A stretch of DNA of 64,000 bases from Clostridia bacterium (GTDB taxonomy: Bacteria > Bacillota > Clostridia > Christensenellales > Borkfalkiaceae), in NCBI GenBank assembly GCA_017463105.1, contig JAFTPU010000003.1, forward strand, positions 30,384 to 94,383, given 5' to 3'. The position numbers and the translations under genes are program-made. Of the stretch, positions 4,809 through 64,000 are shown piece by piece. Under the pieces are notes generated by a model, which did no database searches, was not told the DNA's origin, and saw only the letters and a list, made by a program, of their open reading frames with translations. Within the stretch, counting starts at the first letter, position 1. Each line of letters opens with the position of its first letter.

Positions 4809-5753
4809 ATGAAGATTTCTCTGATCATACCCTGCTACAACGAAGCGGAGGCGTTGCCGACCTTTTACGGGGAACTCGACCGCGTTACCCGCGAAATGTC
4901 CGATTACGAATTCGAGCTTCTGTTTATCGACGACGGCTCGAAGGACAAAACGCTGGAAATTTTAAAGGAGAAGGCTGCGCAGGACAGCCGCGTGACCTAC
5001 ATTTCCTTTTCCCGTAACTTCGGGAAGGAAGCGGCGATGTACGCGGGCTTTTGTAACGTAACGGGCGATTACGCCGCGACCATGGACGCGGATATGCAGG
5101 ATCCGCCCTCGCTTTTGCCCGAGATGATGAAGATACTCGAAACGGGCGAATACGACAGCGTGGCGACCCGCCGCGAAACGCGCAAGGGCGAACCGAAGGT
5201 GCGTTCGTTTTTCGCGCGCAGATTTTATAAGCTGATGAAGCGCATTTCCGACGTCGATATCGTCGACGGCGCACGCGATTTCCGATTGATGAAGCGGAGC
5301 ATGGTCGATTCGATCGTATCGATGAGCGAAAGCAACCGTTTTTCGAAGGGGATATTCGGCTGGATCGGCTTCAAGACTTATTGGCTTCCGTACGAAAACG
5401 TGGAACGCGTGGCGGGCAAGAGTAAATGGAGTTTTTGGAAGCTTTTGAAATATTCTTTCGAGGGGATATTCAATTTTTCCGACGCGCCCTTGAAATTCGC
5501 GTCGTGGACGGGTTTCTTTTTTATGTTCGTTTCGCTCGTGATGACGCTGGTGGTGTTTATCCGCACGCTGGCTTTCGGCGATCCCGTCTCGGGTTGGCCC
5601 TCGCTCGTGTGTATTATCCTGTTCGTCGGCGGCGTGCAATTGTTCTGCCTCGGCGTGATAGGGCAATATATTTCCAAGATCTATAAGGAAACCAAACGCC
5701 GACCGCAGTATATCGTGGCGCAAACGAACAAAGAGGATATCGTGAAGAAGTAA
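4809..5753 (+). CDS. Membrane glycosyltransferase family 2 (GtrB/DPM1-like)
   Basis: 314-residue GT2 enzyme related to polyprenyl-phosphate sugar transferases. The N-terminal GT-A domain begins SLIIPCYNEAEALP and has the metal/sugar-binding DADMQDPP (here after TM-free sequence typical of the DPM1/GtrB group) and DGARDFRLM. Two transmembrane segments follow at about residues 230-255 and 265-290, as in GtrB-like proteins that load a sugar onto undecaprenyl phosphate. The start at 4809 is chosen because the promoter covers the upstream ATGs; AAGGA lies about 10 bases before it. It is monocistronic, bounded by terminators. Sugar and lipid are not determined. Confidence 0.9.
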   Translation: MKISLIIPCYNEAEALPTFYGELDRVTREMSDYEFELLFIDDGSKDKTLEILKEKAAQDSRVTYISFSRNFGKEAAMYAGFCNVTGDYAATMDADMQDPPSLLPEMMKILETGEYDSVATRRETRKGEPKVRSFFARRFYKLMKRISDVDIVDGARDFRLMKRSMVDSIVSMSESNRFSKGIFGWIGFKTYWLPYENVERVAGKSKWSFWKLLKYSFEGIFNFSDAPLKFASWTGFFFMFVSLVMTLVVFIRTLAFGDPVSGWPSLVCIILFVGGVQLFCLGVIGQYISKIYKETKRRPQYIVAQTNKEDIVKK

Positions 5754-5754
5754 T

Positions 5755-5788
5755 TAAAAAGCTTACCCGAAAAGGTAAGCTTTTTTAA
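5755..5788. terminator. Bidirectional terminator between convergent genes
   Basis: Stem TTAAAAAGCTTACC (5754/5755-5767) with GGTAAGCTTTTTT (5774-5786), loop of 6. A runs on the left and T runs on the right allow it to serve both the glycosyltransferase gene and leftward mnmG. Confidence 0.85.
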
Positions 5789-7657
5789 TTATCTCGTTGC
5801 CAGCCACACCATCAACACGGATACGTCGGCGGGGTTTACGCCCGAGATCCTGCCCGCCTGTCCAAGGTTCAACGGTCTTACTCGGTTGAGCTTTTCCCGC
5901 GCTTCCAAACGCAAGCCCAGAATCTCGTCGTAGTCGATGTCGGCGGGCAACGTTTTGTCCTCCAAACGCTTCGCACGCTCGATCTGTTCCAGACCCTGCT
6001 TTAAATAACCCTCGTATTTCACGGTGATCTCCGCCGTTTCCAATACGTCCTTCGAGTATTCCCCGAATACGTTGAAATGCGCCATGATATCCTTTAAAGG
6101 CACGGAACGTTTGAGCATGTCCGCGTACGAAACGCTGCCGCTCGTCGCGCCGTAGCCGTATTTTTCCAAAAACGCCGTAGCTTCCTTTTGACCCACCCGT
6201 GTACGCAACGAATCGAGTAATTGCCCGTATTTCTCCTTTCGCGCGAGGTATCTTTGATACCGTTCTTCCGTGACGAGTCCGCATGCGTAGCCTTTTTCCG
6301 TCAGACGGAAATCGGCATTGTCCTGTCGCAGACAAATGCGGTGTTCGGCGCGCGAGGTCATCATTCGGTACGGCTCGTCCGTGCCCTTCGTTACAAGGTC
6401 GTCGATAAGCACCCCGATATACGCCTCGTCGCGGCGCAGGACGAGCGGGGGAAGTCCGCGAAGCTTGAGCGAGGCGTTCAAGCCCGCCATCAGTCCCTGT
6501 GCGGCGGCTTCTTCATAGCCCGAAGTGCCGTTGATCTGTCCCGCCGTGTATACGCCCTCGATTTTTTTGAATTCCAGCGTGGGAAGAACGTCGAGCGTAT
6601 CGATACAATCGTATTCGATCGCGTAGCCGTAGCGCATGATATCGGCGTTTTCGAGCCCCGCCACGGACGAATACATCGCCCGCTGTACGTCGTGCGGCAT
6701 CGAGGTCGACATACCCTGCACGTACACTTCCAAAGTGTCCGCGCCCTCGGGCTCGAGAAATATTTGGTGCCGCTCCTTATCCTTGAACCGTACGACCTTC
6801 GTTTCTATCGAGGGACAATACCGAGGTCCTGTCGATACGATCGTGCCGTTATAAAGGGGGGAACGCTCGAGATTTTCGAGAATTACCCCGTGCGTTTGCA
6901 AATTCGTGTAGGTGAGATAGCACGGCATTTTGTTTTCGGGCGGCGCGTCGTGCATGAACGAGAAAGGATAGATATCCGTATCCCCGTTCTGTATCTCGCA
7001 TTTCGAATAGTCGATCGTTCGCGAATCCAAGCGCGCGGGCGTACCCGTTTTAAACCGCCGTACGTGGAAACCGAGCGCAATAAGGCTTTCCGTTAAACGG
7101 TTGGCGGGCGCGAACCCGTTCGGACCCGATTTTTGCACGACCTGCCCCGTGATCGTCTCGCCGTTTAAGTACACGCCCGTGCAAAGTATCACGGCGCGGC
7201 AGGAAATAATGCCGCCGTAGGTGGTCTTGACGCCCGTACATTTGCCGTTTTCGGTCAATATTTCCGCCGCTTCCGCCTGAATGATACGGAGATTCGGAGT
7301 GTTTTCCAACACCCGCTTCATTTCTTTATGATATGCGTTTTTATCCGATTGCGCGCGCAGACTCTGTACCGCCGCGCCCTTGCCCACGTTGAGCATACGG
7401 ATCTGTAAGGCGGTATCGTCGGCGACGATGCCCATCTGCCCGCCGAGCGCGTCGATCTCGCGGACGAGATGTCCTTTCGCCGTACCGCCGATCGAGGGAT
7501 TACAGGGTAAAAACGCGATACTGTCGAGGTTGAGGGTCAAAAGCGCGGTCTTGATCTCCGTGCGCGCTAACGCCAGCGCCGCCTCGCAACCCGCGTGCCC
7601 CGCGCCGATAACCGCCGCCTCTGCGGCATATTCCAAAAACGAAACTGAATTTTTCAT
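5789..7657 (-). CDS. mnmG: tRNA uridine-5-carboxymethylaminomethyl(34) synthesis enzyme MnmG
   Basis: 622-residue FAD protein that, with MnmE, modifies U34 of certain tRNAs. The N-terminal dinucleotide-binding motif GAGHAGCEAA is at about residues 18-27, and the family signatures PCNPSIGGTAKGH, GQINGTSGYEEAAAQG and MTSRAEHR are all present. Length is normal. It is the last gene of a leftward pair with dnaA, 140 bp downstream of it. mnmG is commonly close to oriC in Firmicutes, although its usual partners mnmE and rsmG are not in this window. Confidence 0.97.
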   Translation of the reverse strand: MKNSVSFLEYAAEAAVIGAGHAGCEAALALARTEIKTALLTLNLDSIAFLPCNPSIGGTAKGHLVREIDALGGQMGIVADDTALQIRMLNVGKGAAVQSLRAQSDKNAYHKEMKRVLENTPNLRIIQAEAAEILTENGKCTGVKTTYGGIISCRAVILCTGVYLNGETITGQVVQKSGPNGFAPANRLTESLIALGFHVRRFKTGTPARLDSRTIDYSKCEIQNGDTDIYPFSFMHDAPPENKMPCYLTYTNLQTHGVILENLERSPLYNGTIVSTGPRYCPSIETKVVRFKDKERHQIFLEPEGADTLEVYVQGMSTSMPHDVQRAMYSSVAGLENADIMRYGYAIEYDCIDTLDVLPTLEFKKIEGVYTAGQINGTSGYEEAAAQGLMAGLNASLKLRGLPPLVLRRDEAYIGVLIDDLVTKGTDEPYRMMTSRAEHRICLRQDNADFRLTEKGYACGLVTEERYQRYLARKEKYGQLLDSLRTRVGQKEATAFLEKYGYGATSGSVSYADMLKRSVPLKDIMAHFNVFGEYSKDVLETAEITVKYEGYLKQGLEQIERAKRLEDKTLPADIDYDEILGLRLEAREKLNRVRPLNLGQAGRISGVNPADVSVLMVWLATR

Positions 7658-62458: not shown

Positions 62459-62489
62459 TGCATAATTTCCCCGTGTATTCGGCAAATTA
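62459..62489 (+). promoter_or_regulatory. Sigma-G-type promoter of the spoVA operon
   Basis: TGCATA (62459-62464), 18-bp spacer, CAAATTA (62483-62489). The -35 fits the forespore consensus TGMATA exactly and the -10 fits CATAMTA at five of seven positions; spoVA genes are sigma-G dependent in known spore formers. Confidence 0.6.
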
Positions 62490-62512: not shown

Positions 62513-62617
62513 GTGAGACGCATAAAAACGTATGAAAACGAGGGCAGGACGCGAGACGAACGGGAAACCTGTTTTCCCGCCGCAAACGAGCGAACGAAGG
62601 GGGCAGGTACGAGATGA
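62513..62617 (+). CDS. Possible 34-residue leader peptide of the spoVA operon
   Basis: A GTG-started frame preceded at 6 bases by GGGAGGTGG, the best ribosome-binding site in the operon, and ending in an ATGA overlap with the spoVAC start. The peptide is highly charged (RRIKTYENEGRTRDER) with one Cys and no hydrophobic segment. The strong site and overlap support translation and coupling to spoVAC. I recognise no family. Confidence 0.5.
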   Translation: MRRIKTYENEGRTRDERETCFPAANERTKGAGTR

Positions 62618-63066
62618 CGGGAAAAAACAGAGAAAATTACAACAAAAATTACATTGCGTACGTGAACTCGTTCGATCCGCCTACGCAACACTTTAAAAAC
62701 TGTTACCGCGCTTTTTTGGTCGGCGGTTTTATCTGTTGTATCGGGCAGTTTTTGCGGTATATATTCGAGGGCGCGTTCGGGCTTAGCGGCGACGAGCTGT
62801 CGGGCGCGGTAAGCGTGGTGCTCATTTTTTTGGGCACGCTTTTGACGGGACTCGGCGTATACGATCGTATCGGTAAAAACGCGGGCGCGGGGTCGATCGT
62901 GCCGATCACGGGCTTTGCCAACAGCGTGGCTTCGCCCGCGATCGAGTTCAAAACGGAGGGGCTGGTGTACGGTATGGCGGCGAAGATGTTCATCGTCGCG
63001 GGACCGATCATCGTTTACGGAGTGCTGGCGGGCACGCTCGTCGGGCTCATCTATCTGTTTTTGTGA
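62614..63066 (+). CDS. spoVAC: Stage V sporulation protein AC
   Basis: 150-residue membrane subunit of the SpoVA channel that moves dipicolinic acid across the inner spore membrane. About four transmembrane segments, with conserved LSGAVSVVLIFLGTLLTGLG, a central IVPITGFANSVASPAIEFKTEG and a hydrophobic C-terminal helix. Length matches the family. spoVAA and spoVAB are absent, as in Clostridia. The start overlaps the upstream small frame by four bases. Confidence 0.95.
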   Translation: MTGKNRENYNKNYIAYVNSFDPPTQHFKNCYRAFLVGGFICCIGQFLRYIFEGAFGLSGDELSGAVSVVLIFLGTLLTGLGVYDRIGKNAGAGSIVPITGFANSVASPAIEFKTEGLVYGMAAKMFIVAGPIIVYGVLAGTLVGLIYLFL

Positions 63067-63076
63067 GGGCGGGGAT

Positions 63077-63715
63077 ATGCAAACGATATTTTTTAAAAAT
63101 CAGCCGCGGATCGTTTCGAGCGGTACGATCGCGGGACCGAAGGAATGTGCGGGCGTAGTGGGAAAATTCGTCGATAAGGGCTTGACGGACGATATGTTCG
63201 GGGAAAGCACGTACGAAAAGGCGGAGTGCAAGATGCTTGCGTTTGCCATTACGCAGGCGATCAAAAACGCGGAATTGACGGAAAAGGAGATCGATCTTCT
63301 GATCTCGGGCGATCTTTTGAATCAGATCATTTCCGCGTCGTTTGCCGCGCGCGATTTCGATTTTCCCTTTCTCGGCGTGTACGGAGCGTGCTCGACGATG
63401 GCGGAAAGCATGGCGATCGCGGCGGCTTTCGTTAATGCGGGGTATCATAAGCGGATCGTGGCGGCAACGGGCAGTCATTTTTCGTCCGCGGAACGGCAGT
63501 ATAGGTATCCGCTCGAGTTAGGGTGTACCCGTCCGCCGCAGTCGCAATGGACGGTGACGGGCGCGGGCGGCGTCGTGATTGCGGATAAGTCGGAGTGTGA
63601 TTCGACGGTGGCGATCACCGCCGCGACGATCGGGAAAGTGGTTGATTTCGGGATCACGGACGTGAACAATATGGGCGCGGCAATGGCACCCTTTATGGGT
63701 ATAATAGAACCATAG
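63077..63715 (+). CDS. spoVAD: Stage V sporulation protein AD, truncated by inserted sequence
   Basis: 212 codons of a thiolase-fold protein that normally has about 335-340 residues. The present part is full length to the middle of the fold: SGTIAGPKECAG, SGDLLNQIISASFAARDF, FLGVYGACSTMAESMAIAAAF and TDVNNMGAAMAP. Family proteins continue AAADTI after AMAP; here the frame goes FMGIIEP and stops. DNA also changes to AT-rich at base 63692. The C-terminal half is not in the window. Either the gene is dead or it is rejoined by excision during sporulation. Confidence 0.9.
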   Translation: MQTIFFKNQPRIVSSGTIAGPKECAGVVGKFVDKGLTDDMFGESTYEKAECKMLAFAITQAIKNAELTEKEIDLLISGDLLNQIISASFAARDFDFPFLGVYGACSTMAESMAIAAAFVNAGYHKRIVAATGSHFSSAERQYRYPLELGCTRPPQSQWTVTGAGGVVIADKSECDSTVAITAATIGKVVDFGITDVNNMGAAMAPFMGIIEP

Positions 63716-63803
63716 TAGGATGACGTAAGAATTTTTTATAGCAAAGAATACATAAAAAGGAGGCGGAAACGTAGGAAAATAAAGGGAATCTTACTATAAG
63801 CCG

Positions 63804-63838
63804 AGCGTGTAGAGATATAAAATCTACGCGCTTTTTTT
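63804..63838 (+). terminator. Terminator within the inserted sequence
   Basis: Ten-pair stem (63804-63813 with 63823-63832, one G-T), 9-base loop, followed by TTTTTT. Confidence 0.8.
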
Positions 63839-63863
63839 ATTGTCAAAAAACAAGGAGGAACCT

Positions 63864-64000
63864 ATGCTAAAAGAAACGAATTTGGACGGCGTGAAATCGG
63901 TAGCAAGAATGTTATTAATGATACCAATTCGTGAAACGCCGTATTCACCTGCGGTGGTGCAACATCCGTTTACGTCTTGTGGAATCGCATCGTTGAATAA
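63864..64000 (+). CDS. N-terminus of a mobile-element-associated hypothetical protein
   Basis: Frame open from an ATG at 63864, five bases after AAGGAGG, to the window end (45 codons). The peptide contains PIRETPYSPAVVQHPFTSCG; a PYSP..VQHPFTSSGI block is one I associate, from memory, with hypothetical proteins of clostridial conjugative or phage-like elements. Function unknown. It supports the view that the sequence after 63692 is an integrated element. Confidence 0.6.
   Translation, partial: MLKETNLDGVKSVARMLLMIPIRETPYSPAVVQHPFTSCGIASLN

Follow-up and report, generated by a model that had tools for sequence, protein, structure and literature searches.

The window, that is the whole stretch of 64,000 nucleotides analysed here, corresponds to G000:C8:30384-94383 in MAG G000 (1.29 Mb, 14 contigs, 80% complete). 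It was compared with loci from its own genus (g1, 57 genomes) and from two sister genera (g4, 93 genomes; g5, 103 genomes). Near its end lies a spoVA operon in which spoVAD is broken, with the following features:

62460..62489, + strand: promoter motif of forespore type for the spoVA operon, GCATA-N18-CAAATTA (motif scan)
62614..63066, + strand: spoVAC, intact (PF03862, E 1.8e-40)
63077..63691, + strand: native 5' half of spoVAD, codons 1-205 (PF07451 3-203; GC 0.561)
63689..63691, + strand: crossover core CCC, which is codon 205 and common to attL and attR (junctions of g1 and g4/g5)
63692..63715, + strand: left end of the element with the TAG of the truncated frame (same left end in G016, G027 and G029)
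63700-63705, + strand: -10 box TATAAT in the element left end
63705-63714, + strand: left arm TAGAACCATA, the inverted match of the right-end TATGGTTCTA on contig C14
63805..63838, + strand: terminator-like hairpin with a T run (read by eye)
63864..64000, + strand: first part of an element gene that is truncated where the contig stops (sequence comparison with contig C3)

The first-pass annotation of this DNA had described a clean SpoVAD frame up to 63691 followed by AT-rich DNA with a stop, a terminator and the start of a mobile-element-like gene, and this description is confirmed; the split lies exactly at GGCACCC. The frame that starts at ATG 63077 matches positions 3-203 of 329 of PF07451 in a profile search (E 5.7e-82); its last native residues are Ala-Met-Ala-Pro, and codon 205, which ends at 63691, is followed by seven foreign codons and TAG, while GC content drops from 0.561 to 0.375 at the junction. 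The element gene at 63864 shows 64% identity over the 45 available residues to L011:5609-6349 on contig C3, for which a Pfam search gave no match. Since contig C8 (94,383 bases) ends with the window, 309 bases past the break, the rest of the element is invisible within it. Of 54 distinct stretches scanned upstream of spoVAC, 24, the window's included, contain a motif of the form G[ACT]ATR-N17/18-CA[AT]nnTA, and among the 14 from split g4 genomes 1 does; in C. difficile, spoVACDE is described as lying within the sigma-G regulon (PMC3789822).

A profile search of the MAG gave three SpoVAD matches, namely the native 5' half on C8 and two matches on contig C14. One of the latter is the 3' half that the annotation had proposed to look for (5965-6348, PF07451 201-329), which is followed by spoVAEb; the other is a complete spoVAD (4840-5835, PF07451 3-329), with a GC content of 0.427 against 0.561 and 0.549 in the native halves. 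C14 starts inside the element, and its gene order is: spoVG-like, mazF-like, DUF6870, large serine recombinase, large serine recombinase, spoVAD, attR, native 3' half, spoVAEb. The two recombinases, of 570 and 557 aa, both contain Resolvase, Recombinase and Zn_ribbon_recom domains and stand before the 3' half; the earlier suggestion of an integrated element with a site-specific recombinase is supported. The inverted recombinase arms TATGGTTCTA/TAGAACCATA, a feature of large serine recombinase elements, flank the CCC core, and three genomes (G016, G027 and G029) have an own spoVAD with the same two element ends. C8 and C14 are linked by complementary halves and matching ends; they are two contigs, and the middle of the element is absent from the MAG.

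Precise removal of the element would restore the spoVAD frame by an in-frame join of the halves. Like members of the sporulation gene-intervening class, the element is a defined one that interrupts a single sporulation gene in frame and contains a site-specific (large serine) recombinase, on the same contig as the 3' half. The class also has no other intact copy of the gene, and here the window's genome departs from it, because an intact spoVAD is borne by the element. A second intact spoVAD had been named beforehand as grounds against programmed excision; it does exist, yet it sits beside the native 3' half at the right end of the element. The idea that spoVAD of this genome needs excision is not supported: a promoter motif of its own precedes the complete spoVAD that comes with the element, so that excision is not required in the window's genome. 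The other sporulation genes, which had been said to look intact, are represented by an intact spoVAC in the window and an intact spoIVA in the MAG.

Left-end regions resembling that of the spoVAD element were also seen at L011:298-6407 (C3) and in L012 near 9966 (C12), where they lie near a tRNA-Leu and a tRNA-Arg gene; the element part on C3 contains a DNA methylase, ArdA and DUF4314.

Spread of the split codon and the spare gene

spoVAD is broken at codon 205 in 40 of the 253 genomes of the three genera (g1 10/57, g4 17/93, g5 13/103). Both halves were found in 29 of them, including G051, whose contigs end exactly at the core with no element base visible, and one half only in 11 (G040, G046, G153, G165, G171, G177, G270, G272, G281, G285 and G292). 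In G149, G151, G154, G155, G168, G249 and, from another family, G707, the element is flanked by the two halves on a single contig. The same break codon in many genomes argues that the split is not one assembler's chimera. Among the best matches listed from 396 genomes drawn across the order, both halves were present in G707 (f32), G750 (f11) and G540 (f28), and a left half in G731 (f32). The window's genus includes Candidatus Scatosoma pullistercoris, whose locus L152 agrees with G002, and the loci retrieved come mostly from herbivore and bird gut samples.

Several candidates were discarded. A split in family f3 (genera g51 and g78) was dropped because in 22 of the 23 genomes examined both matches fall within one open frame of about 400-560 aa, a SpoVAD with some 60 inserted residues around position 174. 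In G409 and G547 the gene just reaches the contig end, and the same holds for G021, G036, G043 and G275. In G291 (L127, L133, L136) one 5' half and two 3' halves with different right ends were observed, which may reflect either a strain mixture or two insertions.

The spare spoVAD was compared between elements of type A, which have the ends found in the window. Pairwise, the spares of G000, G029 and G016 have dS of 0.80-0.99 and dN/dS of 0.045-0.055, and thus the spare protein has been maintained over a long divergence. The spare of the window's genome is preceded by the promoter motif GCATA-N18-CATACTA (L010:4786); from -35 to the start, the upstreams of G000 and G029 differ by one base, and upstream of the -35 no ungapped similarity between them was found. 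The broad form of this motif has 7 matches in 286,570 bases.

The integration core differs between the two kinds of gene. It reads Met-Ala-Pro-Ala (GCN CCN GCN) in 60 of the 68 native genes aligned and Met-Ser-Pro-Ser (AGT CCA AG[CT]) in 4 of 4 spares covering the core; with its core altered in this way, the element's own copy is probably avoided by the recombinase. Eight intact native g1 genes deviate (G014, G017, G022, G028, G044, G049, G053 and RGIG4556), and these may be either escapes or genes converted by the spare. In the intact native gene of G017 the core bases are those of the spares, and the change is therefore not unique to them.

Elements of type B, with other ends, occur in G031, G033, G040, G046 and G047. 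Two of them, G046 and G047, have a spoVAD copy at the left end, some 245 bases inside the junction; the assembled G047 copy is frameshifted. In G031, G033, G040 and G051 the contigs break off within the element or at its edge, and a spare was not seen there. Phage and plasmid records searched with the spare SpoVAD gave only matches below 60% identity, those listed being at 29-48%. Full-length SpoVAD is encoded in the human faecal phage records MT839037, MT837175 and MT835844, at 42-44% identity.

The clearest case is that of G029, where two contigs overlap exactly by 141 bases and place attL, the spare and attR within about 3.3 kb. This remnant contains a broken gene and the open spare, and the closed element gave no match to the two recombinases, so excision in cis looks impossible. 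Moreover, the native 3' half of G029 carries a frameshift, and no whole spoVAD other than the spare was found in this genome. We consider G029 the best evidence, as read from the assembled genes, that the spare may replace the native gene.

Elements of the sister genera

No spare was found inside the split genes of g4 and g5, and 29 of their 30 split genomes have no second intact spoVAD, as far as the assemblies go. The exception is G285, with an intact spoVAD on another contig behind a shortened recombinase. There (L140, L119) a 400-aa recombinase frame directly precedes intact spoVAD and spoVAEb, and the native 5' half with the left junction is on a separate contig; perhaps this is a locked element with a restored gene.

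Six g4/g5 elements are complete on one contig, with 8 to 36 kb between the halves. Four were annotated, G155 and G154 (five ORFs each), G168 (24) and G249 (25), and all of them carry surface-polysaccharide genes such as sugar nucleotide enzymes and glycosyltransferases (L095, L096, L089/L090, L097/L098); that of G249 has LicD, EpsG and a flippase family, and also starch and transport genes. A sporulation gene is in this way the integration site of surface-polysaccharide islands. The recombinase lies at most about 0.15 kb from the 3' half in G126, G151, G153, G154, G155, G158, G168 and G267 and farther away in G194, G164, G104, G149 and G249.

The age of the insertions and the state of the halves were assessed in pairs of genomes. 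In the nine closest pairs (of the closest 14 of 120 viewed), recombinase dS is close to host spoVA dS, for example 0.60 against 0.40-0.57 for G158-G154 and 0.40 against 0.45-0.49 for G249-G267, and for this reason the insertions look inherited. The split halves stay open in the sister genera, in a check made without the decayed 3' half of G029, which had been excluded in advance, and their dN/dS is 0.01-0.06 in seven of the nine closest pairs; the two pairs with G254 have 0.11-0.14, and spoVAEb there has 0.12. The pairs of this test share species. Comparison of pN/pS between halves and intact relatives, a weaker test, gave no sign of relaxation, with little power because most of the divergence is older than the insertions; its 33 g1 genes taken as intact include at least one duplicate pair (G010, SIG416). 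Being split yet conserved, with no other copy, the halves are presumably brought together again at some point.

The gene immediately upstream of the recombinase encodes a DUF6870 protein (PF21757) of mostly about 70 aa (64-98 aa). It is followed directly by the recombinase in 41 of the 41 IMG/VR contigs found by profile, some of them nearly identical, and DUF6870 is thus very probably a partner of the recombinase; it is a probable candidate for an excision or directionality factor. The DUF6870 profile gave no match at E 1 or better against solved structures. In the 110 bases upstream of the recombinases, sigma-A type matches reach 8-10 of 12 bases, a score taken without shuffle control.

spoIIR is a sigma-F gene in model species and served to calibrate a forespore promoter. 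In 28 of 28 evaluable g4 loci the spoIIR upstream contains GTATA-N15/16, then G[GT]C and A-rich sequence, and at 14 of the 28 sites a possible start lies 35 nt further on; a 15-nt spacing is reported for most B. subtilis sigma-F promoters (PMC5942855). A similar sequence, GTATA-N15-G[AG]nAAAA, stands exactly 35 nt before the DUF6870 ATG in G151, G154, G155, G158, G126, G249 and G254. A position-weight matrix trained on 27 spoIIR sites was scored on the DUF6870 upstreams with shuffles, and p was 0.001-0.006 for six of them, 0.02-0.12 for G104, G194, G155, G168, G040 and G164, 0.37 for G285 and 0.65 for G000.

The strict pattern, written after those upstreams had been viewed, is found before 5 of 3,182 ORFs, all of them DUF6870. 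A relaxed pattern is found before 19 of 3,492 ORFs. Thirteen of these are small genes preceding a recombinase, among 18 genes of this kind examined (the G163 gene was assigned by its sequence, and the G153 gene, with a cut start, was omitted); the other 6 belong to the approximately 3,470 remaining ORFs. Because this pattern was broadened once the outside families were known, the 13 of 18, G707 and G540 included, are partly fitted; an earlier, narrower pattern gave a forespore site in 0 of 3 outside families. Under the relaxed pattern, applied uniformly, the site is absent in G168, G194, G750, G000 and G040, the last two being the evaluable DUF6870 genes of the window's genus; the window's own element has both a spare and a DUF6870 gene without forespore site. 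With the pattern fixed beforehand, the site was found in 0 of 40 IMG/VR contigs without spoVAD, many of them short, some nearly identical and the target gene mostly not visible, and in the one contig with a spoVAD half (L326). As L326 alone has the site and alone has a spoVAD half, the forespore site goes with insertion in spoVAD.

Replacement or excision

For the window we consider it likely, from gene content and motifs, that integration at attB in spoVAD cost the cell its native gene, which would be replaced by the forespore-expressed copy of the element. A serine-recombinase integrative element has inserted site-specifically at the CCC core, codon 205 of spoVAD, and brings a diverged complete spoVAD, placed at its right end after the recombinases and ahead of the native 3' half. 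The spare would be driven by its own forespore promoter of sigma-G type, and its transcript could continue into spoVAEb; the split native gene would be replaced and not rejoined.

In the relatives in which no spare was seen, excision in the forespore is the likely course. The recombinase would be made from a sigma-A type promoter, and in the forespore sigma-F would switch on DUF6870 as directionality factor; the element would then leave, and spoVAD would be rejoined in time for sigma-G. The circle would stay in the spore, and after germination the recombinase, now without the factor, would reinsert it. We put forward this whole cycle, forespore excision by recombinase and DUF6870 with reintegration after germination, as a tentative proposal. 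The first-pass annotation had suggested excision in the forespore rather than in the mother cell; this fits the relatives better than the window's genome, which has the spare, and it is the best reading for those in which no spare was seen, where it is based on purifying selection on the split halves and on the forespore-type promoter before DUF6870. With some reserve, spoVAD may be seen as an order-wide integration site with two solutions, gene replacement or a reversible germ-line switch.

An element like skin could also be supposed for the window's genome itself, with excision during sporulation, a working rejoined native gene and the spare as incidental cargo. The relatives without visible spare look so, the G000 element contains two recombinases and a DUF6870 gene, and its native halves are open without visible relaxation (pN/pS 0.12 in both), from which it follows that the insertion may be young and that excision may also occur. 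Such a role is nevertheless unlikely, because the spare is intact, of a kind under strong selection and behind a forespore-type promoter motif, whereas the DUF6870 gene of this element lacks the forespore site and in G029 it is the native 3' half that has decayed while the spare is open.

A further possibility concerns the joined ends of the element. In 27 reconstructed attP sites from 26 genomes (G103 and G167, with misplaced register, are left out of this count), TTGACA comes from the right end and TATAAT from the left, at a spacing of 17 or 18 bases; the match to the consensus is 12/12 bases in 17 sites and 11/12 in ten, against at most 9 in attL, attR or attB. The layout fits by eye in three more families. 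An excised or circular form was seen on no contig, and the viral contigs searched contained no joined ends of the type A element. The boxes suggest a promoter that would form only on the circle and point into the left-end genes; it is suggestive only, since boxes and recombinase arms overlap and the sites are homologous to one another. In Tn4451/Tn4453, according to what Lyras and Rood reportedly described in 2000, joining of the circle ends forms a promoter that serves the recombinase gene tnpX, whereas here it would point into the left-end genes. ICEKp1 is another precedent for a promoter formed by joined ends (PMC13023037). One might then take this promoter as the main switch and the forespore site as secondary, with stochastic excision and a circle that expresses the left genes. 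The consensus matches and their recurrence in further families speak for this, but the match may partly be recombinase binding, the homologous sites are not independent, and the forespore site before DUF6870 is left unexplained, so that we hold this view to be quite improbable.

It is very improbable that spoVAD was merely inactivated by the insertion in lineages that have lost sporulation. Some g4 genomes are without spoIVA or spoIIR, and gpr (PF03418), tried as second gene for promoter calibration, matched in 0 of 61 g4 genomes, so the spore programme of g4 may be reduced. Against this, a strong spoIVA match (E < 1e-50) is present in 14 of 17 split g4 genomes and 40 of 76 other g4 genomes, spoIIR in 15 of 17 and 57 of 76, and the halves are under purifying selection over shared divergence. 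A chimera of assembly or binning, with the ends of C8 and C14 from different strains and the split an artefact, is hardly credible: the contigs do end inside the element, with its middle missing from an incomplete MAG, but the same junction recurs in numerous MAGs of independent origin, in seven of them with the two halves on a single contig, the overlap in G029 is exact and the inverted arms match on both ends.

Replacement of the native gene in the window and, tentatively, excision in its relatives would give one gene two ways for an insertion to spare the host, a spare copy or exit in the forespore. The first is visible in sequence; the second is testable, with DUF6870 (PF21757) as candidate factor and with its promoter, sites and genomes at hand. 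If it is true, the surface-polysaccharide cargo changes state once per spore cycle, and DNA is excised by programme in the spore's own genome and not in the doomed mother cell. To our knowledge, no earlier case of programmed DNA excision in the spore's own genome has been described. The elements also supply a set of serine recombinases with one common natural target and a linked family of candidate directionality factors.

Comparison with known systems

In a literature search, with subscription journals mostly outside its coverage, neither an element within spoVAD nor excision in the forespore was found described. The closest parallel is the C. difficile skin element in sigK, where the recombinase CD1231 is constitutive from sigma-A and CD1234, of 72 aa, confines excision to the mother cell via sigma-E/SpoIIID (PMC5025042). 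Both systems have a large serine recombinase with a sigma-A promoter, a split, rejoinable sporulation gene and a small protein (64-98 aa here) with, in the relatives, a compartment-specific promoter; CD1234 and DUF6870 are likened here by size and promoter and not by sequence homology. Unlike skin, which works in the mother cell on sigK, the elements described here sit in a forespore gene, with a sigma-F type promoter in the relatives, and that of the window carries a spare gene.

The gin element in gerE of Bacillus cereus is likewise a non-phage island with several serine recombinases in a split sporulation gene, but the gene is a mother-cell gene, the cargo is restriction-modification and a spare copy is not mentioned in the portion of the report available (PMC5595907). 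Mobile DNA with spoVA genes is known from spoVA2mob on Tn1546-like elements, which differs in being an additional operon that raises heat resistance and does not replace a gene split by the element itself (PMC5133452, PMC6907783).

SPbeta in spsM of Bacillus subtilis also splits a sporulation gene and is excised in sporulation; it is, however, a prophage, which leaves only in the mother cell and is kept in the spore genome (PMC4191935). The sporulation-excised elements so described sit in mother-cell genes, and because the mother cell dies, loss of the element costs nothing there (PMC4191935). The forespore genome is inherited, and for this reason an insertion in spoVAD needs either a supplied working copy or reversibility in the germ line.
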